Positions 3,665-57,598 of a stretch of DNA of 64,000 nucleotides are shown here, one piece after another. Position numbers and translations under genes: made by a program. This DNA comes from Streptomyces venezuelae (lineage in GTDB: Bacteria > Actinomycetota > Actinomycetes > Streptomycetales > Streptomycetaceae): assembly GCF_008642315.1 (NCBI RefSeq), contig NZ_CP029192.1, positions 2,356,001 to 2,420,000 of the forward strand. The letters run 5' to 3'. The notes under the pieces were generated by a model. The model did no database searches, was not told the origin of the DNA, and saw only the letters and a list, made by a program, of their open reading frames with translations. The number at the start of each line of letters is the position of its first letter. Within the stretch, counting starts at the first letter, position 1.

Positions 3665-3683
3665 TTAGGTTAGGCTCCCCTAA
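3665..3683. promoter_or_regulatory. Iron box (DmdR/IdeR operator) between mbtH and cchJ
   Basis: TTAGGTTAGGCTCCCCTAA matches 17 of 19 positions of the palindromic actinobacterial iron box TTAGGTTAGGCTAACCTAA. It lies in the short divergent spacer, so the iron-bound repressor would block both directions. A weaker half-site, TTAGCCTTAC, follows at about 3696-3705. Confidence 0.88.
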
Positions 3684-23715: not shown

Positions 23716-25068
23716 CTATCGCGCGGCGCTGCCCGTCTCGCCGGCGACCGGGCGGGCCTCCGCGGAGGCGGCGCCGCGCTCGCGCACCGAGTCCAGGATC
23801 TCGCCGACCCGGATCGCGATGTTGGACAGCAGCGACGACGTGATGCCGTGCGTGTGCTCCGTACCGCCCTGGAGGTAGATGCCGCACCGCAGGTCGTCGT
23901 CGGTCGCCACGCGGTAGTCGCGCTCGACGCGGACGCGGCCCTCGTCGTCGCGCAGGCAGCGGTCGGCGACCTCGCCGAGGAGGCCGACGGGGTCGGCAGG
24001 GCTGTAGCCGGTGGCGAAGACCACGACGTCGGCGTCGAGGGGGTTCTCCTCGCCGGTGACGAGGGACTTCACGGTGGCGCGGACGCCGTCCTCCGTCTCC
24101 TTGACGCCGGTGAGGCGCGAGATGTTGAGGAAGCGGAGGCGCTCGGTGCCGAGGACCTTCTCCCGGTACATCTGCCGGTACAGGTCGTCGATCAGGTCGA
24201 TGTCCACCACGGAGTAGTTGGTGTTGCCGTGGTACCCCATCAGCCGCTGCTTGACGTCCTCGGGAGCGTCGAAGTACTCGTCGACGGCGTCCGGGTCGAA
24301 GATCCGGTTGGCGAAGGAGCTGTCGTCCGCGGGGCTGTAGCCGTAGCGCGAGAAGACGGCGCAGATCTCGGCCTCGGGGAAGCGGCGGTGCAGGTACGCG
24401 ACGTTCTCGGCGGCGCTCTGGCCGGCGCCCACGACGACGAAGCGGGAGGGCGAAGTCCCCTCCAGGCCGTCGACCTTGGCGAGCAGCTCGGAATTGTGCC
24501 AGACGCGGTCCCCGCGCTCGATGCCCTCGGGCATGAGCGGGCGCAGGCCGGTGCCTATGACGAGGTTGCGTGCGCGGTGGACGGCGAGGCCCTCCGCCGA
24601 CCGGACGGTGACGTCCAGGTACTCGACCACTCCGTCCCGTACGAACGGCGTGACACCGACGACCTCGTGGCCGTAGGAGACCTGGTCGTCGACCTTGGCC
24701 GCGGCCCACTCCAGGTAGTCGTGGAACTCCACCCGCAGCGGGAAGAGGTTCTTGTGGTTGATGAAGTCGGTCAGGCGGCCCTTGCTCTTCAGGTAGCAGA
24801 GGAAGCTGAACTCACTGGTGGGGTTCCGCTGTGTCACCAGGTCCTTGAGGAAGGACACCTGCATGGTCGCGTCGTCGATCAGCATGCCGCGGTGCCAGCC
24901 GAAGCTCGACTGCTGCTCGAAGAAGTGAGCGGTGACCGTCTCCTCCCTGCCGACGCTCGCGTTGTGCTCGCTGAGCGCGATCGCCATCGCCACGTTGGAC
25001 GGGCCGAAGCCGATGCCAATGAGGTCGTGGACCAGTGGTGCGTCGTCGCCAGGAAGAACCTGTGACAT
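23716..25068 (-). CDS. cchB: L-ornithine N5-monooxygenase
   Basis: A 450-residue flavin-dependent N-hydroxylating monooxygenase (SidA/PvdA/IucD family, usual length 430-500). The FAD-binding motif is IGIGFGPSNVAMAIAL near residue 12, the NADPH-binding motif VVGAGQSAAENVAYL near 215, and the C-terminal ATGY motif is in VFATGYSPADPVG. It makes N5-hydroxyornithine, needed for both the first (then formylated) and third residues of coelichelin. A strong iron box lies about 87-105 bp upstream. It is divergent from cchA across a 305-bp spacer. Confidence 0.94.
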   Translation of the reverse strand: MSQVLPGDDAPLVHDLIGIGFGPSNVAMAIALSEHNASVGREETVTAHFFEQQSSFGWHRGMLIDDATMQVSFLKDLVTQRNPTSEFSFLCYLKSKGRLTDFINHKNLFPLRVEFHDYLEWAAAKVDDQVSYGHEVVGVTPFVRDGVVEYLDVTVRSAEGLAVHRARNLVIGTGLRPLMPEGIERGDRVWHNSELLAKVDGLEGTSPSRFVVVGAGQSAAENVAYLHRRFPEAEICAVFSRYGYSPADDSSFANRIFDPDAVDEYFDAPEDVKQRLMGYHGNTNYSVVDIDLIDDLYRQMYREKVLGTERLRFLNISRLTGVKETEDGVRATVKSLVTGEENPLDADVVVFATGYSPADPVGLLGEVADRCLRDDEGRVRVERDYRVATDDDLRCGIYLQGGTEHTHGITSSLLSNIAIRVGEILDSVRERGAASAEARPVAGETGSAAR

Positions 25069-45907: not shown

Positions 45908-47887
45908 CTAGGCCTCGGCCGCCTCGGCTGCCTTCGCCGCCGCGTCGATCGCCGCCAGCGAGCGTCGGGCCTGGTTGCGGTCCGTGGTGTACCAGAAGTC
46001 GGGCAGCGAGGCCCGCAGGTAGCTGCCGTAGCGGGCGGTGGCAAGGCGGGGGTCCAGGACAGCGACCACTCCACGGTCCCCGGAGGCCCGTACGAGACGG
46101 CCCGCGCCCTGGGCCATCAACAGGGCCGCGTGGGTCGCCGCGACCGCCATGAACCCATTGCCACCGGCATCGTCGACCGCCTTCTGGCGAGCGCTCATCA
46201 GCGGATCGTCGGGACGCGGGAACGGGATCTTGTCCATGATCACCAGCTGGCAGCTGGTCCCCGGCACGTCGACGCCCTGCCAGAGCGAGAGCGTCCCGAA
46301 CAAGCAGGTCTTCGAGTCGGCCGCGAAGCCCTTGATCAGCTCTCCCAGCGTCTCCTCGCCCTGCAGGAGGATCGGCATGTCCAGCCGCCCCCGCAGTTCC
46401 TCCGCCGCCCCCTGAGCGGCCCGCATCGAGGAGAAGAGACCGAGCGTGCGTCCACCGGCCGCCTCGATCAGCTCGGCGAGCTCGTCCAGCATGTCGCTGC
46501 GGGTGCCCTCGCGCCCCGGCCGGGCCAGGTGTTTGGCGACGTACAGGATGCCCTGTTTCCCGTAGTCGAAGGGCGAGCCGACGTCGAGCCCCTTCCACAC
46601 GGGCGCGTCGTCGGATTCGGTGCCCTCCGGGGCCAGACCGAGCGAGGCCCCCACTCCGTTGAAGTCACCGCCCAGCTTGAGCGTGGCGGAGGTGAGGACC
46701 ACTGAACGATCGGCGAAGAGCTTCTCCCTGAGGAGGCCCGACACCGACATGGGGGCCACCCTCAGGGAGGCGCCGTAGCGATCATGGCGTTCGTACCAGA
46801 CCACGTCGTACTCGGAGCCGTTCGTGATGCGCTCCGCCACGTCGTGGATCGACTCCACGGAGGCGAGAGCCTGCTTGCGGACCGCGTCCTCGTCCTGGAC
46901 CGACTTGTCCCGGGTCGAGCCGAGCGCGCTGATCACCGTGCGCGCGGCGTCCCGCAGGGCCATCAGCGCATAGCCGAGGTCCTCGGGGATCTCCTCCAGG
47001 CGGCCGGGCAGAGCAAGCTCCATCAGCCGCTCGAAGCCCTCCGAGGCGGTCTGAAGCTGGTCCGCCGCCTTCTCGTTGACCAGCTTCGCCGCGCGGCGCA
47101 CGGCACGATTGACCTGCCCCGGAGTGAGCTCCCCCGTGGCCACACCGGTGACGCGGGAGACCAGCTCGTGGGCCTCGTCCACGATCAGCACTTCGTGCTG
47201 AGGCAGGACGGGGGCACCTTCGATGGCATCGATGGCGAGCAGCGCGTGGTTCGTGACGACGACCTCGGACAGCTTGGCGCGCTCGCGGGCCGCCTCGGCG
47301 AAGCACTCCGCCCCATAGGCGCACTTCGAAGCTCCCAGGCACTCCCTGGAGGAGACGGACACCTGGGACCAGGCCCGGTCGGAGACCCCGGGGGTCAGGT
47401 CGTCGCGGTCGCCCGTCTCTGTCTCGTCCGCCCAGTCCCGCATCCGCAGGAGGTCCTGGCCCAGCTTGCTGGTGGGGGCGGCCGCCTCGAACTGGTCGAA
47501 AAGGCCCTCCTCCTCGTCCTGCGGCATGCCTTCGTGGAGGCGGTGCAGGCAGAGATAGTTCGAACGCCCCTTGAGCATCGCGAACTGCGGACGGCGGCGC
47601 AGCAGCGGATGCAGCGCGTCCACGGTGCGCGGCAGATCGCGCTCCACGAGCTGGCGCTGCAGGGCGAGAGTGGCCGTCGCGATCACCACACGCTCGCCGT
47701 GGGCGAGGGCCGGCACCAGATAGCCGAGGGATTTACCGGTGCCGGTGCCGGCCTGGACCAGCAGGTGGGAGCCGTCGTCGATCGCCTCGGCGACGGTCTC
47801 GGCCATGGACACCTGGCCAGGGCGTTCCGTACCACCGACAGCGGCGACGGCGGCGTGCAGGAGCTCGGGGAGCGAGGGCTTCGTCAT
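45908..47887 (-). CDS. dinG: DinG-family ATP-dependent DNA helicase
   Basis: A 659-residue superfamily 2 iron-sulfur helicase. Walker A is QAGTGTGKSLGY near 40, the Fe-S cysteines are spread around SRECLGASKCAYGAECF (near 180-196), DEAH is in LIVDEAHEL near 237, and the C-terminal motifs include ATHAALLMAQGAGRLVR. It unwinds damaged DNA, R-loops and G-quadruplexes. It is the first gene downstream of the siderophore genes (40-bp gap), so it may share their transcript, although no SOS box is visible just before it. Confidence 0.92.
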   Translation of the reverse strand: MTKPSLPELLHAAVAAVGGTERPGQVSMAETVAEAIDDGSHLLVQAGTGTGKSLGYLVPALAHGERVVIATATLALQRQLVERDLPRTVDALHPLLRRRPQFAMLKGRSNYLCLHRLHEGMPQDEEEGLFDQFEAAAPTSKLGQDLLRMRDWADETETGDRDDLTPGVSDRAWSQVSVSSRECLGASKCAYGAECFAEAARERAKLSEVVVTNHALLAIDAIEGAPVLPQHEVLIVDEAHELVSRVTGVATGELTPGQVNRAVRRAAKLVNEKAADQLQTASEGFERLMELALPGRLEEIPEDLGYALMALRDAARTVISALGSTRDKSVQDEDAVRKQALASVESIHDVAERITNGSEYDVVWYERHDRYGASLRVAPMSVSGLLREKLFADRSVVLTSATLKLGGDFNGVGASLGLAPEGTESDDAPVWKGLDVGSPFDYGKQGILYVAKHLARPGREGTRSDMLDELAELIEAAGGRTLGLFSSMRAAQGAAEELRGRLDMPILLQGEETLGELIKGFAADSKTCLFGTLSLWQGVDVPGTSCQLVIMDKIPFPRPDDPLMSARQKAVDDAGGNGFMAVAATHAALLMAQGAGRLVRASGDRGVVAVLDPRLATARYGSYLRASLPDFWYTTDRNQARRSLAAIDAAAKAAEAAEA

Positions 47888-47927: not shown

Positions 47928-49961
47928 TCAAGGTTGGTGGAGGGGGTTGCCCACGGTTCCGTGCACGGCGGCGTGCGGGCGCTGGGACCGGTCGCGGTAT
48001 CCGTCGAGGTGCAGGCGGTTCCGGTTCAGGCAGAGCCGCTCGATACGGGGGGTGAGCAGGTCGAACATCTCGTACCGTTCCTTCAGCTCGGGGGCGCGTG
48101 CCTGGTGCCGCAGGATCTCGGACCGCACGAAGGACCAGAAGTCGGCTTCCGGAACACCCAGTTGTTCCTCGCAGAGGGGCGCGAGATAGCGGAAGACGCC
48201 CACGAAAAGACCCGAGTGGATGAACTGGGTGAGGAAAGCGGGCGGCTCTGTGAGCAGTACGTCACGCACGTCCCCGGGCATCGCGTCGTGCTCGGGCAGC
48301 GGTACCGCGCTCACGTTGACGTCGTCCACGAAATCCTTCACGGCGAGCCGGACGGGCACGTCATTACCGTCGAAAACAACGATGGCGTTCTCCCCGTGAG
48401 GGGAGAACACCGTTCCGTAGCGGTAGAGAAAGTGCAGCAAGGGCGGCAGCAGTGCGGCGAAGAGCCGCCGCAGCCAGGCCTCGGGCGCCAACCCCGAGCG
48501 CTCCACGAGCTCGGCGACGAAGGCCCGGCCGCCGGAGTCGGTATGCGTGAGAGAGGCCAGGGTGCGGGCACGTTCACCGGGTGCAAGGTAGCGATGCAGG
48601 GGCTCTCGCCAGATGGCGCCGAGCAACTCTCTGTACTGATAGGGGACTTCAAGCAGCCCGTCGTACACGGGATGCTCGACGGCCACCGACGCCACCTCGC
48701 CGAGCAGGATGACCCCGCATTCGTCGCGCAGGAAGGGGTCGGCGTCCCGCAGCCCGTGCATCCAGGCGGTGACTGCGGGCGCGGCCACCGTGCGGCCGGT
48801 GGGCAGACCCCGCCACACGAGCGTGTTCAGGACCGACAGCGGAAGCTTCACGGTGTGCCGGTCGGGGCGGGTCGTATTGAGAAACGTACGGATGGACTGC
48901 TGAGGAAGGCGCAGGTCACCGTCACTGCAGAGCGGAACGATGGCATCCGCGGCAATGGACGGTGCGAAGAGCGGCAGCACCGTCTCGTCCCACTGCCAGG
49001 GGTGCACGGGCAGGTAGAGGTACTGCGCCGGGTCCAACCCGCGTGCGCGCAGTAAATCCGCGAAGACTGCCCGGATGTCGGCGGAGAGCTCGCGTGCGTA
49101 CAGCTGCGGGGCGGTGTCCAGCCCCGCGACGCCCCGGTACACGGCGAGGTCGGTGTGGACGGCGATCCACGGCAGCGTCGTGGAGCGGCGCGCCTCGGGG
49201 GCCCAACGGTCGGTGTCGCCGGCGGAGAACCCGATCCGCCCCTTGTTCAGGACGAGCCAGGGATGGCCCGTCTGATGCCCTTCGAGTTCCGCGTAGCCGA
49301 GATCGGCGAGCTGGGCCGCGCTGAGCGCCGTGTTGTCGATCTTGGCGTCGGCGCTGAGGGTGACGGTGAGCTCGCGGATGAGATGGCCGAGTGTGGCGCC
49401 GTCCAGGCCCAGGGTCCGGCGGGCGAGTACGAGGAAGCGCAGGGGGTCGCTCAATGCGAGGGCCGGCCCGTTGCCCTCGGTGAGGGTCAGGCCGGCCGGG
49501 TCCACATACCAGCTTCCGTACGATCCGCGGCGGGCGCGGAAGGTGAGCACGGTGCCTTGTCGATCCGGGGAGTCGTCGGTCCCGTCGGAGTCGCCGGCCC
49601 GGTGCGAACCGCCGTTCCCGTGCGAGCCGGCGGTCCCGTTCCTCTCCCCCACCGCATCGGCGACCTCGTCCTGCCTCCGCGCATCGTCCGCGGCCTCGTC
49701 CTGGTCGGCCGGTTCGAGATCCTGTCCGGCCGGTTCGAGCCGAAGCCGGTAGATGCCCGCCTCCCCGTCCCCGTCCCGGTCCCCCTCAGCCGCGGGCACG
49801 GACACCGGCACGGGCCGAATGATCTCCTCGTACGCGAACTCCCCGATCATCTTGGCCAGCAGTCGGCGCCCGGCCTCTCGCCATCTGTCCTGAGTCAGTT
49901 CGGGCGGGTCGTATAGCTCGATGGAGGGCCGGGGAATCGAGCTGGCGGACGGATTCGGCAC
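47928..49961 (-). CDS. IucA/IucC-family NIS siderophore synthetase, SPHGEN type
   Basis: A 677-residue NRPS-independent siderophore synthetase. The acyl-adenylation core is seen in RTFLNTTRPDRHTVKLPLSV, the active-site SPHGENAIVVF near residue 518, and the C-terminal FhuF-like region ending QARAPELKERYEMFDL. Residues about 75-135 are an inserted low-complexity stretch rich in Asp, Gly, Ser and Glu. It condenses a carboxylic acid (citrate or succinate class) with an amine or hydroxylamine using ATP. It is the last gene of a four-gene set, 44 bp after the acetyltransferase gene. Substrates are not predictable here. Confidence 0.9.
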   Translation of the reverse strand: MPNPSASSIPRPSIELYDPPELTQDRWREAGRRLLAKMIGEFAYEEIIRPVPVSVPAAEGDRDGDGEAGIYRLRLEPAGQDLEPADQDEAADDARRQDEVADAVGERNGTAGSHGNGGSHRAGDSDGTDDSPDRQGTVLTFRARRGSYGSWYVDPAGLTLTEGNGPALALSDPLRFLVLARRTLGLDGATLGHLIRELTVTLSADAKIDNTALSAAQLADLGYAELEGHQTGHPWLVLNKGRIGFSAGDTDRWAPEARRSTTLPWIAVHTDLAVYRGVAGLDTAPQLYARELSADIRAVFADLLRARGLDPAQYLYLPVHPWQWDETVLPLFAPSIAADAIVPLCSDGDLRLPQQSIRTFLNTTRPDRHTVKLPLSVLNTLVWRGLPTGRTVAAPAVTAWMHGLRDADPFLRDECGVILLGEVASVAVEHPVYDGLLEVPYQYRELLGAIWREPLHRYLAPGERARTLASLTHTDSGGRAFVAELVERSGLAPEAWLRRLFAALLPPLLHFLYRYGTVFSPHGENAIVVFDGNDVPVRLAVKDFVDDVNVSAVPLPEHDAMPGDVRDVLLTEPPAFLTQFIHSGLFVGVFRYLAPLCEEQLGVPEADFWSFVRSEILRHQARAPELKERYEMFDLLTPRIERLCLNRNRLHLDGYRDRSQRPHAAVHGTVGNPLHQP

Positions 49962-50005
49962 GGGGACTCCTCGGTGAGGGAACCGGATCGGGTCGAGCGT
50001 CGTTA

Positions 50006-50773
50006 CTAAGAGTGATCAGGCCAGAGCAGGGAGCGCAGGGCCCGGTCACGGACCATGAGAGCCGCGCGTTTCTCGGGCAGATCCACCTCCGCAAAGAAGC
50101 GGAAGCCGGCGCTCAAGAAAGCGGAGACGGAGGGGGTGTTGCGCAGGTCGGGTTCAGCCACGACGCGTGCGCAGGAAGGACGGTGGTCGAGCACCAGGTC
50201 GGCCACGGCTCTGAGCAACGAAGTGCCTAGGCCACGGCCGCGGTTGGCGACGCTGCCGATGAGGAGGTGGATGCCGGTGTCGTGCGGCCGCGAGGCGTAG
50301 TGCCGGGCCAGCGGATCCAGGTCCGCTCGGTACAGCTCCCAGTAGCTCATCGGCATCCCGTCCAGCACGCCCAGGCAAGGAACGCTGCGTCCGTCCCCGT
50401 CCAGCTGCGTCCGGAGGTGGGTCTCCGTCACGGCTTCGGGTCCGGCCAGTTCCCAGAAAGCGGCCACCGCAGGGTCATTCATCCAGCGGCTGATCACTGG
50501 GAGGTCACGTTCGAGACGTACGGGTACGAGTTGGAAGACACCGGCACCGGTGGTGACAGGGCCCCAGTCGCCGACGCCGTCCAGTAGATCGTCCTGCACC
50601 CCACCGATTCGCCGCTCGCCCTCTGCCATCAGGGCGACGAGCTCATCGGGCAGCCGCAGGTCGAGGGTGTCCGCGCAGTCGGCGCCGGTAGCGGCGGATT
50701 CGATTCCGGCGTTGAGTCCGGCATCAGGTCCGGCATCGATCCCGGTGTCGGTGCTCGCATCGGTGGGAGGCAC
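50006..50773 (-). CDS. AlcB/IucB-type GNAT acyltransferase of the NIS siderophore locus
   Basis: A 255-residue GNAT-family acyltransferase. The AlcB-specific region is visible as VISRWMNDPAVAAFWELAGP, followed by the acetyl-CoA loop RGRGLGTSLLRAVADLV and a core ending NTPSVSAFLSAGFRFFAEVDLPEKRAALMVRDR. Family members acylate N-hydroxylysine or related hydroxylamines. Residues 1-40 are a repeating Asp/Thr/Ala/Gly-rich segment (DAGPDAGLNAG). Start is GTG preceded by AGGAG at 7 nt. Between two IucA/IucC genes. Confidence 0.87.
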   Translation of the reverse strand: MPPTDASTDTGIDAGPDAGLNAGIESAATGADCADTLDLRLPDELVALMAEGERRIGGVQDDLLDGVGDWGPVTTGAGVFQLVPVRLERDLPVISRWMNDPAVAAFWELAGPEAVTETHLRTQLDGDGRSVPCLGVLDGMPMSYWELYRADLDPLARHYASRPHDTGIHLLIGSVANRGRGLGTSLLRAVADLVLDHRPSCARVVAEPDLRNTPSVSAFLSAGFRFFAEVDLPEKRAALMVRDRALRSLLWPDHS

Positions 50774-50808
50774 GACGTCGCTCCTGTCAGCAGAGGTGTG
50801 GCATGTCC

Positions 50809-52860
50809 TCAGGAATGGAGGGGGTTGGGAATGGTGACGTAGACGGACTGGGTGTCGACCGGGCCGACGAGCTCGTCGAGCCCGTGCAACCGGGTCAGCA
50901 AGTTGGCCTTGCAGCGCAGCACGGGTGAGTCGAGCAAGGTCGCGGGCAGCGAGGTACGCAGCTTGGCGGGGCCCGATGCCACATCGCCCAGGAAGCGACG
51001 GAAGGCGGCGAGCAGCAGACGTTCGTCCGCGAGCCGTTCGGCGCCGAGGGCTCCGATGAGGCCGAGGACGTTGTTGATGCCGAGGTAATAGGCGAACCGC
51101 TCGTCCGTCACCTCGTCGGATACGAACGTGTCGCTGTCCCGACCGATGCCGGGAAGTCGTCGTTCGAGTTCGGCGCGCCGAGACTCGCGGAAGTAGTAGC
51201 CCTGGTTGTCGCGGTACCGGCCGCCCACGGGCCAGCCGTCGGGGTCGAGCAGGAGGAGGGTGTTCTGCTGGTGCGCCTCCAGGGCGACACCCGCCTCGCT
51301 GTCCAACCAGAGCACGGGGCGTACGACGGTTTCCAGGTAACGCAGGAACCACTCGGTGGCAACCGCGCCTCGCGAACGCCCTGTTCGCCCGGCGAGACGG
51401 GTGACGGTTTCGCCGAGCCGGGAGTGCATCGCGTGACTGTCCTGGCAGGAGGGCAGTACCGAAGGGCGGGGTGAGACCAGTCCGGCGATGCAGGTGGCGT
51501 CGTCGCCGGGCTGGAAGGGGTTGTGCCGGATCATGACGTCGAGTCCGGGGACGGGCTCGCCGTCGGTCCCTGTGACGGCGAGCCATGCCGGGTCGCGGAT
51601 GACGTCGAAGCAGGGGTGGACCGACTGCCACTGCTCTGCGAGGCCGCTGCGGAGCAGCCGGTGGACCTCGACACCGCGGTGGAGTTCCTTGCGGAGATTC
51701 TCGCGACGGGAGTTGGTGATGCGCACGCCGAGCGACAGCTTCAGCATGGCGGCGGCGCCTGGGCGGTAGAGGGTACGGACGGAGGAGGTGGGGCGCCAGG
51801 GGGTGCCGTGAGTGCCGAGGTCCTGGAGCAGGCCTGCGTCGAAGAGCGCGGCGGTCGCGGGCCGGTGCCGGAGTTCACGGATCTGCCAGGGGTGCACGGG
51901 AAGGGCGGCGCGGCCGTCTGGGAGCGGCAACTCGGCGCCGACGAGCCGGGCGGCGAGCTGGTCGGCGGGGACGGTGCGGCCGCGCTCGGTCCATGCGGAG
52001 TCGGAAGCGAGTACGGAGCGGTCGACGGCCAACCAGTGGAGTGCGAAGGCGCCGCGCAACTCCGGTGAGTAGAGGCGGGATTCGGTGTCGGACAGGCCCT
52101 CACGGCTCTTGGGGGTCGGATGCAGGGGGTGCCCGAGGAGGAGGGACTGCTCGGCGGCGAGGAAGAGGTCGGGTTCGTCGGCGGGGCGGTCGCGACGGTC
52201 GGCGAGGAAGGTGGCCGTGCGCCTAACCGAGTCGGCCACCCGGCCGACGAGGTCGGCGCCGTCGACCGGCTCGGAGGTGGTGGCCGTGGTGCCTGCTGGG
52301 GCCGCGTGAACCGTGCCGGCCGCGTTGGCTCCGCTGGCCTCGCTGACCTCGCAGTCCGCGCTGACCGGTTCAGGTTCAGGGGAGGTGGCGGTCCTGGCCG
52401 TATCGTCCGACTCGGCGTGGGTCGCGCGACGGGCCGTTTCGCGGCCGAGGAGGGCGGCGACGGTGACGGCGTCCACGGGTGGGGCGCTCTCGGGGCCGTC
52501 CTCCAGGTAAGGGAGGCTGAAGCGGTGCCAGCCGGTGGCCGACCAGTAGTGCACGGGGACGAGGAGGGCCGTTCCGCTGGCCTTGAGGGGGACCCGAAGG
52601 ATGCCTTGGTCCGGAGCGGGGAGATTGTTCTCCCTGACCCAGCAGCGGAGAAGGTTCTCGACGGCCGCGGCCTGTGCGGCGATGTGCGGGTCGGGGTGTT
52701 CCAACAAGTCGGTGGATGCCCCGCGCAGGCGCTCGGCCTCCTGGCCGCCACCCTTCTGCCGGGGGACCGTACCGGACTCCGCCACCAGTGAGGTGTGCGT
52801 GCCGCACGCGCCTGGGGCGTCGGGTTGGGGGCGGCCTTCGGATGCGGGGGTGGCGTTCAA
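50809..52860 (-). CDS. IucA/IucC-family NIS siderophore synthetase, EAHQQN type
   Basis: A 683-residue NIS synthetase. It contains LPVHPWQIRELRHRP, SSVRTLYRPGAAAMLKLSLGVRITNSRRENLRKEL, and the active-site EAHQQNTLLLLDPDGWPVGGRYRDNQGYYF, different from the SPHGEN form of its partner. Start: I place it at TTG, 6 nt after AAGGAA; upstream frame is antisense to the aminotransferase. The first ~220 residues hold a Thr/Ala/Gly-rich insertion after GRETARRATHAESDD. It lies 103 bp after the aminotransferase and 35 bp before the acetyltransferase, so one transcript is likely. Substrates unknown; pairs of synthetases usually make unsymmetrical or doubly condensed products. Confidence 0.88.
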   Translation of the reverse strand: MNATPASEGRPQPDAPGACGTHTSLVAESGTVPRQKGGGQEAERLRGASTDLLEHPDPHIAAQAAAVENLLRCWVRENNLPAPDQGILRVPLKASGTALLVPVHYWSATGWHRFSLPYLEDGPESAPPVDAVTVAALLGRETARRATHAESDDTARTATSPEPEPVSADCEVSEASGANAAGTVHAAPAGTTATTSEPVDGADLVGRVADSVRRTATFLADRRDRPADEPDLFLAAEQSLLLGHPLHPTPKSREGLSDTESRLYSPELRGAFALHWLAVDRSVLASDSAWTERGRTVPADQLAARLVGAELPLPDGRAALPVHPWQIRELRHRPATAALFDAGLLQDLGTHGTPWRPTSSVRTLYRPGAAAMLKLSLGVRITNSRRENLRKELHRGVEVHRLLRSGLAEQWQSVHPCFDVIRDPAWLAVTGTDGEPVPGLDVMIRHNPFQPGDDATCIAGLVSPRPSVLPSCQDSHAMHSRLGETVTRLAGRTGRSRGAVATEWFLRYLETVVRPVLWLDSEAGVALEAHQQNTLLLLDPDGWPVGGRYRDNQGYYFRESRRAELERRLPGIGRDSDTFVSDEVTDERFAYYLGINNVLGLIGALGAERLADERLLLAAFRRFLGDVASGPAKLRTSLPATLLDSPVLRCKANLLTRLHGLDELVGPVDTQSVYVTIPNPLHS

Positions 52861-52963
52861 GAGGGCTTCCTTGTGAGGTTGTTCGGGTCTCCGTGTGGCG
52901 ACGCGGCCCGGGGCGTGCTCGGCGGTTCCTGTCCGGCAGGAGGGCTGCCCGGGCCCGTCTTGG

Positions 52964-54544
52964 CTATCTGGGGTGGGCGCGCGCCGCGGTGGCCAGCGCG
53001 TCGGCGAGGCGGTCGAGGACCGCGGCCGCCTGTTCGTCGGTGAGGGTGAGGGGAGGCAGGAGTCGTACGACGCTGGAGTGGCGGCCGCCGAGCTCGACGA
53101 TGAGTCCACGGCGCAGGCACTCGCGCTGCACGGCAGCGGCCAGTTCGGGCGCCGGGGGGTGAGGTTGTGCGGTGGGGGCGAGGTCGGTGAGGACGGAAGC
53201 GAGGTGCTCGTCTGCGTGTGCGGTCCCGGTGCGTACGCCTCCCGTGCGCGCCGGGCCCGTGGTTGCGGCGCCTGACGTTGTGGCCTGCGACGGGAGCGCC
53301 GTCGCCGGCTCGGTGTTCGCATTCACCAGCTCCACGCCGATCATCAGGCCCCGGCCGCGGATCTCGCCGATGCAGGGGTGATGCGCGGCCAGGGAGCGGA
53401 GCTGGGCGAGCATACGGGAGCCGAGGGTGGCGGCGCGTTCGGCGAGGCCGTTCTCGCGGACGTACGCGAGGGTCGCCGCGCCCGCCGCCATGGCGAGTTG
53501 GTTGCCGCGGAAGGTTCCCGCGTGGGCGCCGGGGGGCCAGACGTCGAGGTCGTCGCGGTAGACCACGACGGCCAGGGGCAGGCTGCCGCCGATCGCTTTG
53601 GAGAGCACCATGACGTCCGGGACGATGCCGCTGTGCTCGACGGCCCAGAAGGCGCCGGTGCGACCGACACCCGTCTGCACCTCGTCCGCGATGAGAGGGA
53701 TGCCGCGGGCGGCGGTGATCTCGCGCATCCGGCGGAGCCAGGCGTCGGGTGCGGGGTAGACCCCGCCCTCTCCCTGGACGGGTTCGAGGATCATGCCGGC
53801 GGGGGCCGGTACGCCCGATTTGGTGTCGTCGAGGACGTTTTCGGTCCACCGGGCGGACAGTTCGGCGCCCTGCGCGCCGCCGAGCCCGAAGGGGCAGCGG
53901 TAGTCCTGGGGGTAGGGCAGGCGCGCGACCCGGACGGTCGATGCGCCGCCGGACGCTTCGAGCGCGCCTGCGGTCATGCCGTGGTAGGCACCGGCGAAGG
54001 CGAGCAGCCCGTCGCGGCCGGTGGCCGCGCGGACCAGTTTCAGTGCCGCCTCCACCGCGTCCGTCCCCGCGGGGCCGCAGAACTGGATCCGTGCGCGGTC
54101 CGCCAGGCCGGGCGGCAGCGTGCGGAACAGCTCCGTGGTGAACGCGTCCTTGACCGGCGTCGCGAGATCGAGGACGTGCAGCGGGGCCCCGGAGTCGAGG
54201 ACCTTCCTGATCGCTTCGAGGACCACGGGGTGGTTGTGGCCGAGCGCGAGGGTTCCGGCGCCGGAGAGACAGTCCAGGTAGCGGCGGCCGTCGGCGCCCT
54301 CGATCGTCAGTCCGCGTGCCCGGACCGGGACGATCGGGAGGGCTCGCGCATAGGTGCGGGCGGCCGATTCGCGTGCCGCCTGGCGCCGCAGGATGCCCTC
54401 GTGGGCCGTGGTCTGCGCCGCGGGCCGCGCGGGCTGCGGTGTGCTCTGCGCGGGCGGCGCTGTGGACTGCGCGTGCTGCACCGCGGGCTGCGTTACGGAA
54501 TTCACTGCGGACGCCGCCGCGGGCGCAGGGTCGGTCACGGCCAC
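52964..54544 (-). CDS. Class III PLP aminotransferase, diaminobutyrate-2-oxoglutarate type, of the NIS locus
   Basis: A 526-residue class III (subgroup II) aminotransferase. PLP-site marks: GPAGTDAVEAALKLVRAATGRDGLLAFAGAYHGMTAGAL near 160, the aspartate in IADEVQTGVGRTG near 280, and the Schiff-base lysine in MVLSKAIGGSLPLAV near 300; later GTFRGNQLAMAAG. It best fits the diaminobutyrate-2-oxoglutarate aminotransferases of siderophore loci such as rhizobactin, which make a diamine from aspartate semialdehyde. No decarboxylase follows, so the diaminobutyrate would be used as such. Start is GTG 10 nt after GGGAGG. Residues ~405-455 are an inserted Thr/Ala/Gly-rich loop. Likely first gene of the operon. 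Confidence 0.85.
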   Translation of the reverse strand: MAVTDPAPAAASAVNSVTQPAVQHAQSTAPPAQSTPQPARPAAQTTAHEGILRRQAARESAARTYARALPIVPVRARGLTIEGADGRRYLDCLSGAGTLALGHNHPVVLEAIRKVLDSGAPLHVLDLATPVKDAFTTELFRTLPPGLADRARIQFCGPAGTDAVEAALKLVRAATGRDGLLAFAGAYHGMTAGALEASGGASTVRVARLPYPQDYRCPFGLGGAQGAELSARWTENVLDDTKSGVPAPAGMILEPVQGEGGVYPAPDAWLRRMREITAARGIPLIADEVQTGVGRTGAFWAVEHSGIVPDVMVLSKAIGGSLPLAVVVYRDDLDVWPPGAHAGTFRGNQLAMAAGAATLAYVRENGLAERAATLGSRMLAQLRSLAAHHPCIGEIRGRGLMIGVELVNANTEPATALPSQATTSGAATTGPARTGGVRTGTAHADEHLASVLTDLAPTAQPHPPAPELAAAVQRECLRRGLIVELGGRHSSVVRLLPPLTLTDEQAAAVLDRLADALATAARAHPR

Positions 54545-54923
54545 GACTGTTGGTCCTCCCGCTGGGGACGAATGCGGCCGTCCGGTGACGCCCAGGAGGG
54601 CGTCATGTGGGCGAACGCGCAGGCGAGTTGGGCAGGGGGATGAACGCATGCGGCGACTCCCCCGTACGTACCAACGACGAGAGGCCCGGCGGAACACGGG
54701 CAAGTGGAAGATCCTTGCCGTGACGGAACCGTTGCCCTTCCGTCGGCCGTCCCCAACGGCACCGGCATAGTGTGGGGGCCGTTCATCAGCGACAGGTGGC
54801 GCCGCTCCCCCGAGCAAACCCGAGCAAATCGAGCGAGGGGGTGCCGCACCGGTGGCAACGGGTGCTCCGCACCCGGATGTCCAGCACTTTGGAACAATTT
54901 CGAGGCCCAGGGGGAATCTCACG
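54545..54923. other. Divergent spacer between NIS operon and first peptidase gene
   Basis: About 380 bp. It holds the promoter motif at 54748-54772, and short inverted repeats (GGCAAG/CTTGCC and GACGGAA/TTCCGTC within 54699-54744). I searched it on both strands for a TTAGGTTAGG-like iron box and saw none. No gene is supported. Confidence 0.6.
54748..54772 (+). promoter_or_regulatory. Shared peptidase promoter motif, copy 1
   Basis: CGTCCCCAAC, 6 bp, then GGCATAGTG. The same words at the same spacing precede the second peptidase gene. It fits a -35/-10 pair of a non-housekeeping sigma factor, 152 bp before the gene start. Confidence 0.62.
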
Positions 54924-56153
54924 ATGCGACCCATACGTCCGCTCTTCGCTGTTCGCAGTAGGAGGAGCATGCGCTCCAGAACCTCCCCTGTGGCGGCTGT
55001 GGCGCTCGGCGCGGCGCTCGTACTGACCGCCACGGCCTGCGGTCCCAGCGAGGACAACGCCGGCGGTGACTCGTCCTCGGCCCAGCCCGGTGACAGCAAC
55101 GGCGACGACAAGATCCAGATCCCGGACGCCTGGAAGGACAAGCTCAAGGAGAACGGGATCGATCTGGACGAATGGAAGAACGGCGCCTGGAAGAACTGGA
55201 ACAAGGACGACTGGCTCCGCGAGGCCGGCGACTTCGTCAACCCGATCATCGAGGACCTGTGGGACCCGGACCGGATGCGGGACGCCGACAAGAACCCTGA
55301 CCGGGGCGTCGACGACAACGACATCTCCGGTGACCAGGGCGTCACCGACCCGACCCCCAAGCCAGTGGAGGCGGCCGCCGTGAAGGCGCCGTACCACGAC
55401 CAGGTCGCCGAGTCGGGCAAGCTCTTCTTCGACAGCCCCGAGGGTTCGATGGTCTGCTCCGCGACCGTCGTGAAGGACCCCGCCCACCCGGGCAAGTCCA
55501 ACATGGTGTGGACCGCGGGCCACTGCGTGCACGCGGGCGCCAAGGGCGGCTGGTACCGCAACATGGTCTTCGTCCCGTCGTACAACAACAGTGGCAAGTC
55601 GGTCGCCGAGCTGCAGAACGCCCCGAAGGAAGAGGTCGCTCCGTACGGCGTCTGGTGGGGCGACTGGGCGCAGACCTCCGACCAGTGGATCGAGCAGGGC
55701 GGCCCGACCGGCGGTGCGGGCGCACCGTACGACTTCGCGGTCATCCACGTGAAGCCGGAGAAGGGCAGTGAGGGCAAGTCGCTCGAGGAGACGGTCGGTT
55801 CCGCGCTCCCGGTGGACTTCAACGCCCCGGCCGTCCCGCAGATCGACACCATGACGGCGACGGGATACCCGGCGGCGCCGCCGTTCGACGGCCAGAAGCT
55901 CTTCCAGTGCGCTGACAAGCCGGGCCGGCTGTCGCTGTCGAAGCCCGACCCGACGATGTACCGCGTCGGCTGCACCATGACCGGCGGTTCGTCCGGCGGC
56001 GGCTGGGTCGCCAAGGGCCAGGACGGCAAGCCCGCGCTCGTGTCGAACACCTCCATCGGTCCGGTGACGGCGGGTTGGCTGGCCGGTCCGCGCCTCGGCA
56101 AGGAGGCCAAGGGCATCTACAGCGCGGTGAGCAAGAAGTTCGCCGACAAGTAG
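54924..56153 (+). CDS. Secreted trypsin-like serine peptidase, lipoprotein-like
   Basis: A 409-residue secreted protein. A signal peptide (SRTSPVAAVALGAALVLTATACGPS) ends in a poor lipobox, so lipid anchoring is possible but uncertain. Residues ~55-145 are a charged pro/linker region with the repeated DEWKNGAWKNW motif. The chymotrypsin-fold catalytic triad is visible: His in TAGHCVHAG (near 197), Asp in YDFAVIHVKPE (near 270), Ser in GGSSGGGW (near 355). It probably acts at the cell surface; substrate unknown. Its neighbour at 56387 is a close paralogue. ATG start after AGGGGGAA. Confidence 0.88.
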   Translation: MRPIRPLFAVRSRRSMRSRTSPVAAVALGAALVLTATACGPSEDNAGGDSSSAQPGDSNGDDKIQIPDAWKDKLKENGIDLDEWKNGAWKNWNKDDWLREAGDFVNPIIEDLWDPDRMRDADKNPDRGVDDNDISGDQGVTDPTPKPVEAAAVKAPYHDQVAESGKLFFDSPEGSMVCSATVVKDPAHPGKSNMVWTAGHCVHAGAKGGWYRNMVFVPSYNNSGKSVAELQNAPKEEVAPYGVWWGDWAQTSDQWIEQGGPTGGAGAPYDFAVIHVKPEKGSEGKSLEETVGSALPVDFNAPAVPQIDTMTATGYPAAPPFDGQKLFQCADKPGRLSLSKPDPTMYRVGCTMTGGSSGGGWVAKGQDGKPALVSNTSIGPVTAGWLAGPRLGKEAKGIYSAVSKKFADK

Positions 56154-56295: not shown

Positions 56296-56386
56296 GGGTG
56301 TTGCATCGACGCTCGACGCGGAGACCCGCGTCGACCGACATGACACGCACATGGCAGATTCACGTTCCATCGGGGGTAACAGCACC

Positions 56387-57598
56387 ATGCGTTCCACTCG
56401 TGCGCCGTTCGCGCGCAGCCGCGGACGGCGGGTGGCGCTCGCCGCCACCGGTCTCGCGGCCACTCTGGCGCTCACCGCCACGGCCTGTGGTCCCAGCGAC
56501 GACAAGGCGAGCGACAAGCCGGACGCCACCACGTCTCAGGGAGCCAACGGCTCCGACTCCGGTTCCGATGTCCAGCTTCCCGACGGCCTCGCCGACAAGC
56601 TGAAGGACAAGGGCATCGACCTGGACGACTGGAAGAACGGCGCCTGGAAGAACTGGGACAAGGGCGACTGGGTCCGGGAGGCCAAGGACTTCGCCAACCC
56701 GGTCATCGAAGGGCTCTGGAAGCCCGAGCGGATGCAGAAGGCCAAGGACCCGAACAAGACGATCGCCGCGAAGGACGCGACCGCCGATCAGGGCGCGACC
56801 GACCCGGAGCCGACGCCGGTCCAGGCCAAGCCGGAGAAGACGCCGTACCACGACAACGCCGCTCCGGTCGGCAAGATCTTCTTCGACTCCCCCGAGGGTT
56901 CGATGGTCTGCTCGGGCACCGTGGTGAAGGACCCGCGCGATCCCGGCAAGTCCAACCTCGTGTGGACCGCGGGTCACTGCGTGCACGCCGGCGCGAAGGG
57001 CGGCTGGTACCGCAACATCGCCTTCGTGCCCTCGTACAACGACCTGGGCAAGTCCGAGGCCGACCTGCGTAACGCGGCCCCGCAGGAGATTGCCCCCTAC
57101 GGCCAGTTCTGGGCCGACTGGGTCTCGACCTCCAACGAGTGGATCAACGGCGGCGGTCCGACGGGCGGCGCGGGTGCGACGTACGACTACGCCGTCATGC
57201 ACGTGAAGCCGGAGCAGGGCGACAAGTCCCTCGAAGAGACCGTCGGCAACGCGCTCGACGTCGACTTCTCGACTCCGGCCGCGCAGAGCGTGAGCTCGAT
57301 GGGCGCTTGGGGCTACCCGGCCGCTCCCCCGTACAACGGCCTGATCATGCACAAGTGTGTCGACAAGCCGGGCCGTCTCTCGCTCTCGCCGTCGCTGCCG
57401 ACGATGTACCGCATCGGCTGCACCATGACCGGCGGTTCGTCCGGCGGCGGCTGGTTCCGGGTGTCCGGCGGCAAGACCCGGCTCGTGTCGAACACCTCGA
57501 TCGGCCCGGCCGAGAACACCTGGCTGGCGGGCCCGCAGCTGGGCCGCGGCGCCGAGCAGGTCTACGACATGATGAGCAAGAAGTACGGCGCTCAGTAA
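56387..57598 (+). CDS. Secreted trypsin-like serine peptidase, lipoprotein-like (paralogue)
   Basis: A 403-residue paralogue of the peptidase at 54924-56153, with the same layout: signal peptide ending LALTATACGPS, the charged linker with DDWKNGAWKNW, and triad segments TAGHCVHAG (near 195), YDYAVMHVKPE (near 267) and GGSSGGGW (near 350). The linker lacks the paralogue's acidic run and carries more Ser/Gly. ATG start follows GGGGGTAAC. The strict conservation of the linker motif outside the catalytic domain suggests it has a role, perhaps in anchoring or inhibition. Confidence 0.88.
   Translation: MRSTRAPFARSRGRRVALAATGLAATLALTATACGPSDDKASDKPDATTSQGANGSDSGSDVQLPDGLADKLKDKGIDLDDWKNGAWKNWDKGDWVREAKDFANPVIEGLWKPERMQKAKDPNKTIAAKDATADQGATDPEPTPVQAKPEKTPYHDNAAPVGKIFFDSPEGSMVCSGTVVKDPRDPGKSNLVWTAGHCVHAGAKGGWYRNIAFVPSYNDLGKSEADLRNAAPQEIAPYGQFWADWVSTSNEWINGGGPTGGAGATYDYAVMHVKPEQGDKSLEETVGNALDVDFSTPAAQSVSSMGAWGYPAAPPYNGLIMHKCVDKPGRLSLSPSLPTMYRIGCTMTGGSSGGGWFRVSGGKTRLVSNTSIGPAENTWLAGPQLGRGAEQVYDMMSKKYGAQ

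Follow-up and report, generated by a model that had tools for sequence, protein, structure and literature searches.

How can a siderophore operon that encodes two synthetases and an acyltransferase, and neither a decarboxylase nor a hydroxylase, lead to a product? The question is raised by a four-gene operon of Streptomyces venezuelae, located in a 64,000-nucleotide stretch of its chromosome (contig NZ_CP029192.1, positions 2,356,001 to 2,420,000; G000:C1:2356001-2420000 in our numbering, hereafter the window) and carrying two nonribosomal peptide synthetase-independent siderophore (NIS) synthetase genes. We hold with good confidence that the window genes form part of one dispersed six-gene pathway, in which L-2,4-diaminobutyrate (Dab) and then 1,3-diaminopropane are intermediates and the product is a citrate dihydroxamate, either schizokinen or a close relative. 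Most likely, this pathway is nearly universal in the genus and has left iron-box control.

The operon consists of four genes, all on the minus strand, in the order aminotransferase (AT), NIS1, GNAT and NIS2, separated by 103, 35 and 44 bp. Coordinates, Pfam matches and the synthetase motifs confirmed the first-pass annotation of this DNA, which had described a siderophore operon of four genes in one direction with gaps of 35-103 bp. The first gene, AT (52964..54544, GTG start, 526 residues), encodes a class III aminotransferase of the L-2,4-diaminobutyrate:2-oxoglutarate transaminase type. It matches PF00202 (Aminotran_3) with 288 bits, exceeds the cut-off of the Dab-transaminase model TIGR00709 (473.7 against 401.6 bits) and finds its best match in PRK06938 (636.7 bits, with a cut-off of 671). 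The rhizobactin-type logic first proposed for the locus was right; at an E-value of 1e-60 there is one other AT-like match in the genome, of 38% identity. NIS1 (50809..52860, TTG start, 683 residues) is an IucA-type synthetase, type A by homology, with PF04183 and PF06276 (IucA_IucC and FhuF) and the motif EAHQQN, and its closest solved structure is IucA 5jm7 (E 1.2e-50) followed by AcsD. GNAT (50006..50773, GTG start, 255 residues) matches PF13523 (Acetyltransf_8) with 162 bits and is an N-acyltransferase predicted to act on a hydroxylamine; the closest solved structures are MbtK, BH2621 and Rv1347c, with DfoC and NcdE also matching. NIS2 (47928..49961, GTG start, 677 residues) is an IucC/AlcC/DesD-type synthetase, type C by homology, again with PF04183 and PF06276 and with the motif SPHGEN, and is closest to the structures of DesD, AlcC, DfoC and IucC (E 1e-84 to 1e-98). 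Low-complexity stretches run through AT (about residues 414-465), NIS1 (about 145-200) and NIS2 (about 60-135), and these are points where alignments with relatives are frequently interrupted or start.

No decarboxylase or hydroxylase gene is present at the window operon, an absence that is limited to this locus. Within the window, the closest strong hydroxylase match is the CchB-like gene of the other siderophore locus (23716-25068), just as the first-pass annotation had stated. Elsewhere in the genome, a single contig of 8.94 Mb, both missing enzyme types are found together at about G000:C1:6669447-6672352, 4.26 Mb from the operon. There, a decarboxylase gene (DEC, L047:14448-15914, 488 residues, PF00282) directly precedes a hydroxylase gene (HYD, L047:15911-17353, 480 residues, PF13434 with 385.5 bits); the two overlap by ATGA, and an aminopeptidase N gene lies upstream. 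PF13434 has eight matches in the genome, two of them strong (CchB in the window and HYD at 6.67 Mb) and the other six scoring 21-46 bits, whereas PF00282 has six matches including DEC. The best model for DEC is the RhbB-type Dab decarboxylase NF052646 (291.8 bits, far below the equivalog cut-off of 900), and its best structure is 2qma, which carries L-2,4-diaminobutyrate decarboxylase in its name. HYD best matches the solved structures 6xbb, 5o8p of the desferrioxamine pathway and the putrescine N-hydroxylase 7us3, which by homology places it among the diamine N-hydroxylases. Because NIS1 and NIS2 are the sole PF04183 matches in the whole genome, HYD is left without any other NIS partner. The statement that decarboxylase and monooxygenase are lacking was thus correct for the locus and does not extend to the genome, and the genome search for an unlinked diamine monooxygenase that had been proposed with it leads to HYD. 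A dedicated pair in the flanks outside the window had been named as the finding that would speak against the first interpretation; such a pair does exist outside the window, though 4.26 Mb off and not in the flanks.

Relatives supply the connection between the two sites. In S. venezuelae the operon takes up the whole space between a dinG-like helicase gene (45908-47887) and a divergent gene (54852-56153); the helicase gene and lexA lie on one side, and two genes without a Pfam match followed by hflX on the other. Three sister genera within the same family as S. venezuelae (L220, L222, L223) have a complete operon in this slot, between hflX and the dinG-like gene, in the order AT-DEC-NIS1-GNAT-HYD-NIS2. 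This complete form is also found in five members of family f3 (L168, L169, L170, L171, L181), among which L170 and L171 show both the hflX and the dinG-like flank. Partial versions include DEC-NIS1-GNAT-HYD-NIS2 at L172, without an AT match, and at L182, where the contig starts at DEC; AT-DEC-NIS1-HYD-NIS2 at L167, which has no GNAT match and was left out of the eight complete operons; and AT-DEC-NIS1-GNAT-HYD, without NIS2, at three loci of genus g16, in the same slot (L217-L219). L228 carries a linked AT-DEC-HYD-NIS1-GNAT. Streptomyces and near genera have DEC-HYD at a site of its own, and at 17 of the 20 such loci examined pepN lies in the same stretch. Genus g27 is broken differently: AT-DEC are adjacent and away from HYD in nine of nine genomes searched, while NIS1-GNAT-HYD occupy the ancestral slot at the three loci examined (L214-L216), two of them with NIS2. 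That the genes survive under two different break patterns would be difficult to account for if they no longer worked together. A second copy of this kind, either a cluster or a DEC-HYD pair, is additionally present in some genomes of the family (L174:5128-16312, L175:4713-15313, L176:5922-12781, L177:7010-9899 and L233); no GNAT match was found in the second copies of L174, L175 and L233, and a strong iron box lies near the first gene in four of the five.

Presence and absence across the genus point in the same direction as gene order. Among 296 genomes, each at least 98% complete, NIS1 is present in 284 and DEC in 275, the DEC orthologues being taken at E <1e-80 since DesA-like paralogues score about 1e-65 to 1e-77. 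Both genes occur in 274 genomes and neither in 11 (Fisher p 1.3e-13, with shared ancestry not removed). In a family-wide draw, 118 of 121 genomes contain HYD matches with E-values no higher than 1e-105, 108 of them a single one, with a few matches, at 43-44% identity, resembling DesB.

We infer the substrate of each enzyme, the acyl group, the product and the joint action of the split genes as follows. AT would form L-2,4-diaminobutyrate, which the unlinked DEC would decarboxylate to 1,3-diaminopropane. HYD would then N-hydroxylate one amine of the diamine and GNAT would acylate the resulting hydroxylamine. NIS1 would couple a first such unit to citrate and NIS2 a second, giving a citrate bis-hydroxamate; with acetyl as the acyl group, this would be schizokinen. 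The product, initially called unknown, can in this manner be narrowed by inference to a schizokinen-type citrate dihydroxamate.

The known NIS systems fit this proposal to different degrees. The schizokinen/rhizobactin 1021 gene set comprises a Dab aminotransferase, a Dab decarboxylase, a diamine N-hydroxylase, an acyltransferase and IucA-like and IucC-like synthetases. All six enzyme types are present by homology in the S. venezuelae genome, DEC being a candidate Dab decarboxylase that scores far below the cut-off of the RhbB model, and the one-operon form of the relatives is the same gene set; the difference is that here the genes occupy two distant sites without iron boxes, the usual single iron-regulated cluster of this type being found in the eight relatives with complete operons. 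The desferrioxamine pathway (desABCD) also employs a pyridoxal phosphate-dependent decarboxylase, a hydroxylase, a GNAT and a type C synthetase, but DEC and HYD fall in clades apart from DesA and DesB, and the genome has no DesD. Aerobactin synthesis (iucABCD) shares the IucA-like and IucC-like synthetases and the acetyltransferase; it is however built on N6-hydroxylysine with no aminotransferase or decarboxylase, both of which are present here. When the locus is compared with characterised NIS loci, as had been recommended, the schizokinen/rhizobactin gene set is the one that agrees by homology, and desferrioxamine and aerobactin do not. Nor do the carboxylate NIS types without N-hydroxylase, such as staphyloferrin and achromobactin, match a family whose operon holds HYD and which keeps it elsewhere in S. 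venezuelae, where it would presumably serve the same pathway.

One alternative keeps the six genes and changes the acyl group, which would be longer or unsaturated, or of two different kinds, giving an amphiphilic relative like acinetoferrin, synechobactin or rhizobactin. The best solved match of GNAT, MbtK, is named a lysine N-acyltransferase and uses a long-chain acyl group; the next distinct structure match is however BH2621, from a schizokinen-type cluster of Bacillus. Schizokinen itself, moreover, has been reported from Streptomyces extracts by liquid chromatography-mass spectrometry (LC-MS), from S. anulatus RLA103 with an assignment to 'BGC 1.15' (PMC11865988) and, tentatively, from S. 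mutomycini SL02 and Streptomyces SL03 (PMC13136089). On balance, we consider a non-acetyl product unlikely, though a serious candidate.

A second alternative is the one suggested by the first-pass annotation, in which the operon acts alone, without decarboxylation or hydroxylation, and makes a carboxylate-type siderophore that keeps diaminobutyrate, by a logic like that of staphyloferrin or achromobactin, DEC-HYD serving something else. The gene content of the locus agrees with this, as do the 10 of 284 NIS1-bearing genomes in which a DEC orthologue is missing. Against it stand the six-gene operons of sister genera at the same chromosomal slot, the strong co-occurrence of DEC and NIS1, the lack of another NIS partner for DEC-HYD, and a GNAT from PF13523, of the type found with hydroxamate siderophores, that would be left without a hydroxylamine substrate. 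A product retaining the Dab carboxyl group is also ruled against by the unlinked gene itself, a Dab-decarboxylase-type gene overlapping HYD, that tracks NIS1 and has its homologues inside the same-slot operon. We regard this account as very improbable. The choice originally left between an unlinked monooxygenase and a non-hydroxamate product accordingly goes to the former, given the discovery of HYD, the latter not being favoured.

Several observations nevertheless weigh against a single dispersed pathway. NIS1 occurs with no DEC orthologue in ten genomes, and DEC with no NIS1 in one; some of these misses fall in highly fragmented drafts and others do not (G074 is one contig). In the DEC and HYD trees, the split pair groups with the operon DEC and HYD and apart from DesA and DesB, but split DEC and split HYD each form their own long-stemmed clade (support 100). 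These clades, defined after the first tree had been inspected, both include the pairs of L228 (linked) and L177, and the DEC clade in addition the second copies from L174 and L175. For NIS1 and GNAT, the window-type sequences cluster with those of the in-place operons in g16, g17 and g27, and g15 and g18 fall outside. Holding the split genes together with the same-family in-place genes is not rejected by the approximately unbiased (AU) test (p 0.197 for HYD and 0.388 for DEC), and relocation is therefore possible: DEC-HYD may have moved out of the slot, or it may have been replaced from a related cluster such as that of L228. Furthermore, no shared regulatory site for the two halves was found in the upstream regions compared. 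As for the LC-MS reports, their cluster assignments are tentative or asserted and could not be matched to the window locus.

Iron boxes set the Streptomyces branch apart from its relatives with complete operons. We scored sites out of 19 against an iron-box consensus, taking 13/19 or more as a site; the highest score in 300 background stretches was 12/19. Seven iron-box-like sites (13-17/19, at 3665, 17539, 20557, 20587, 21481, 25155 and 25316) were found at the coelichelin-type locus of the window (3665-25334), and thus the scan works in this genome; this coelichelin-type system probably provides the strain's iron-regulated siderophore. In the intergenic region that separates AT from the divergent gene (54545..54851), the best score is 11/19, in line with the initial remark that no iron box was visible, and the promoter of DEC reaches 9/19. 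By comparison, all eight complete six-gene operons have an iron box before AT (13-16/19, within the 500 bp scanned before the AT match), L167 has one of 18, and the AT-DEC sites of g27 have one in nine of nine cases (15-16/19). Boxes also occur at L221 and L228 (2/2), at two of three second copies and on two of three NIS1 sides of g27. No AT promoter reached 13/19 among the 71 scorable of 80 named Streptomyces, nor in three further members of the genus or three of g20/g29. For DEC stretches, one of 39 in Streptomyces (L244, 14) and one of nine in sister genera (L227, 15) did so, the 39 including some genomes twice and L073 being a second-copy locus. The ancestral state in the family is likely to have been a single iron-box-controlled operon at the window's slot. 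In the Streptomyces branch, DEC and HYD are found away from that slot, in most cases together with pepN, and neither site in S. venezuelae shows a recognisable iron box. The three g16 operons are unsplit and yet boxless, so that loss of the box does not strictly go with splitting. A perfect inverted repeat before DEC, GCGTACAGG-N8-CCTGTACGC, was considered as a shared operator and rejected, as it occurs only in the upstream region of S. venezuelae itself (L049) and of one close relative (L234) among 50 regions. The AT promoter holds a conserved block, which could belong to the divergent gene.

The counterpart of the locus in S. coelicolor appears to be sco5799-sco5801, whose neighbours are lexA, nrdR and nrdJ. 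To our knowledge, the enzyme families encoded here do not make catechols. The S. coelicolor genes have been described as a putative siderophore locus (PMC7324645), and an aminotransferase/IucA/acetyltransferase locus on contig 28 of S. tricolor HM10 has been called catechol-type (PMC9268400), a reading that does not fit these enzyme families. The gene content described for the two loci, together with these neighbours, points to the same locus as in the window, a comparison made by description; a difference is that the window retains NIS2, which is absent from many Streptomyces. In the second mycelium of S. coelicolor at 48/72 h, sco5799 and sco5801 transcripts are up (log2 +1.3 to +1.8) whereas desA and those coelichelin genes that are listed decrease, all being up at 24 h (PMC3610822). 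In high-copper spores, sco5800 changes by -1.3 against +0.5 to +1 for sco0493, sco2783 and sco2785, although the text of that report describes siderophore genes as down (PMC6414726). Both expression sets are consistent with separate control, iron being the variable in neither.

The last step shows its own pattern of loss. NIS2 is present at 19 of the 80 named Streptomyces loci, and at 59 others a dinG-like match follows 67-507 bp after the GNAT match. With states assigned by E-value, so that a small number of second copies of NIS2 (about 49% identity, e.g., G018 and G035) are counted as NIS2, 160 of the 296 genus genomes have a NIS2-class match, 129 a DesD-class match only and seven neither, i.e., 136 are without NIS2. 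Among the 284 NIS1 holders, a match to DesD-class, the second type C synthetase, is missing in 42 of 158 genomes with NIS2 versus 5 of 126 without it (Fisher p 1e-7, which ancestry could explain); on a 29-genome NIS1 tree NIS2 changes three times, leaving the independent-pairs test powerless. The retention of a DesD-class synthetase by NIS2-less genomes weakly suggests a shared last step, against which G115, G151, G203 and G282 have NIS1 and DEC with neither NIS2 nor a DesD-class match, and G074 has NIS1 alone. S. venezuelae fits the pattern, with NIS2 kept and no DesD in a whole-genome PF04183 search. Its des place (L297:6448-10686) holds a hexosaminidase gene, a gap of 183 bp, a shortened desA-like gene (403 residues) and a lipoprotein-type gene in the position of desE. 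Given the 183-bp gap, desB, desC and desD are not there; the locus is a remnant and desferrioxamine is probably not made. As a speculative extension, to which we give a low probability, the pathway of the Streptomyces branch may stand wholly outside the iron regulon as a differently timed third siderophore system, NIS2-less species using DesD for the last citrate amide bond and two siderophores sharing one synthetase. That the pathway is instead half-decayed and on its way out after the loss of iron control, with little or no product, as the boxless sites, the 136 of 296 genomes without a NIS2-class match and the 10 of 284 NIS1 holders without DEC might indicate, is scarcely likely in view of NIS1 retained in 284 and DEC in 275 of 296 genomes, 21 of 23 motif patterns (NIS2 and GNAT each miss one) present in the six proteins, schizokinen reported from three Streptomyces strains and the rise of sco5799 and sco5801 transcripts (PMC3610822).

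Beside the operon, the divergent gene (54852-56153) and its neighbour (56351-57598) are similar to each other and, by eye, resemble secreted trypsin-like proteases with lipoprotein-type starts.

In the open-access literature, as far as the excerpts extend, we recognised no report linking this locus with the unlinked decarboxylase-hydroxylase pair, and earlier reports may exist elsewhere. A view of the neighbourhood alone misses two of the six enzymes of a locus that 284 of the 296 genus genomes carry. Linking both sites leads to a concrete product hypothesis and could explain why schizokinen has been reported from extracts of Streptomyces. It also makes testable whether a dispersed pathway still works as one, what takes the place of iron-box control and whether siderophore pathways may share a synthetase, and the two break patterns in related genera provide a natural test of the purpose of gene clustering.

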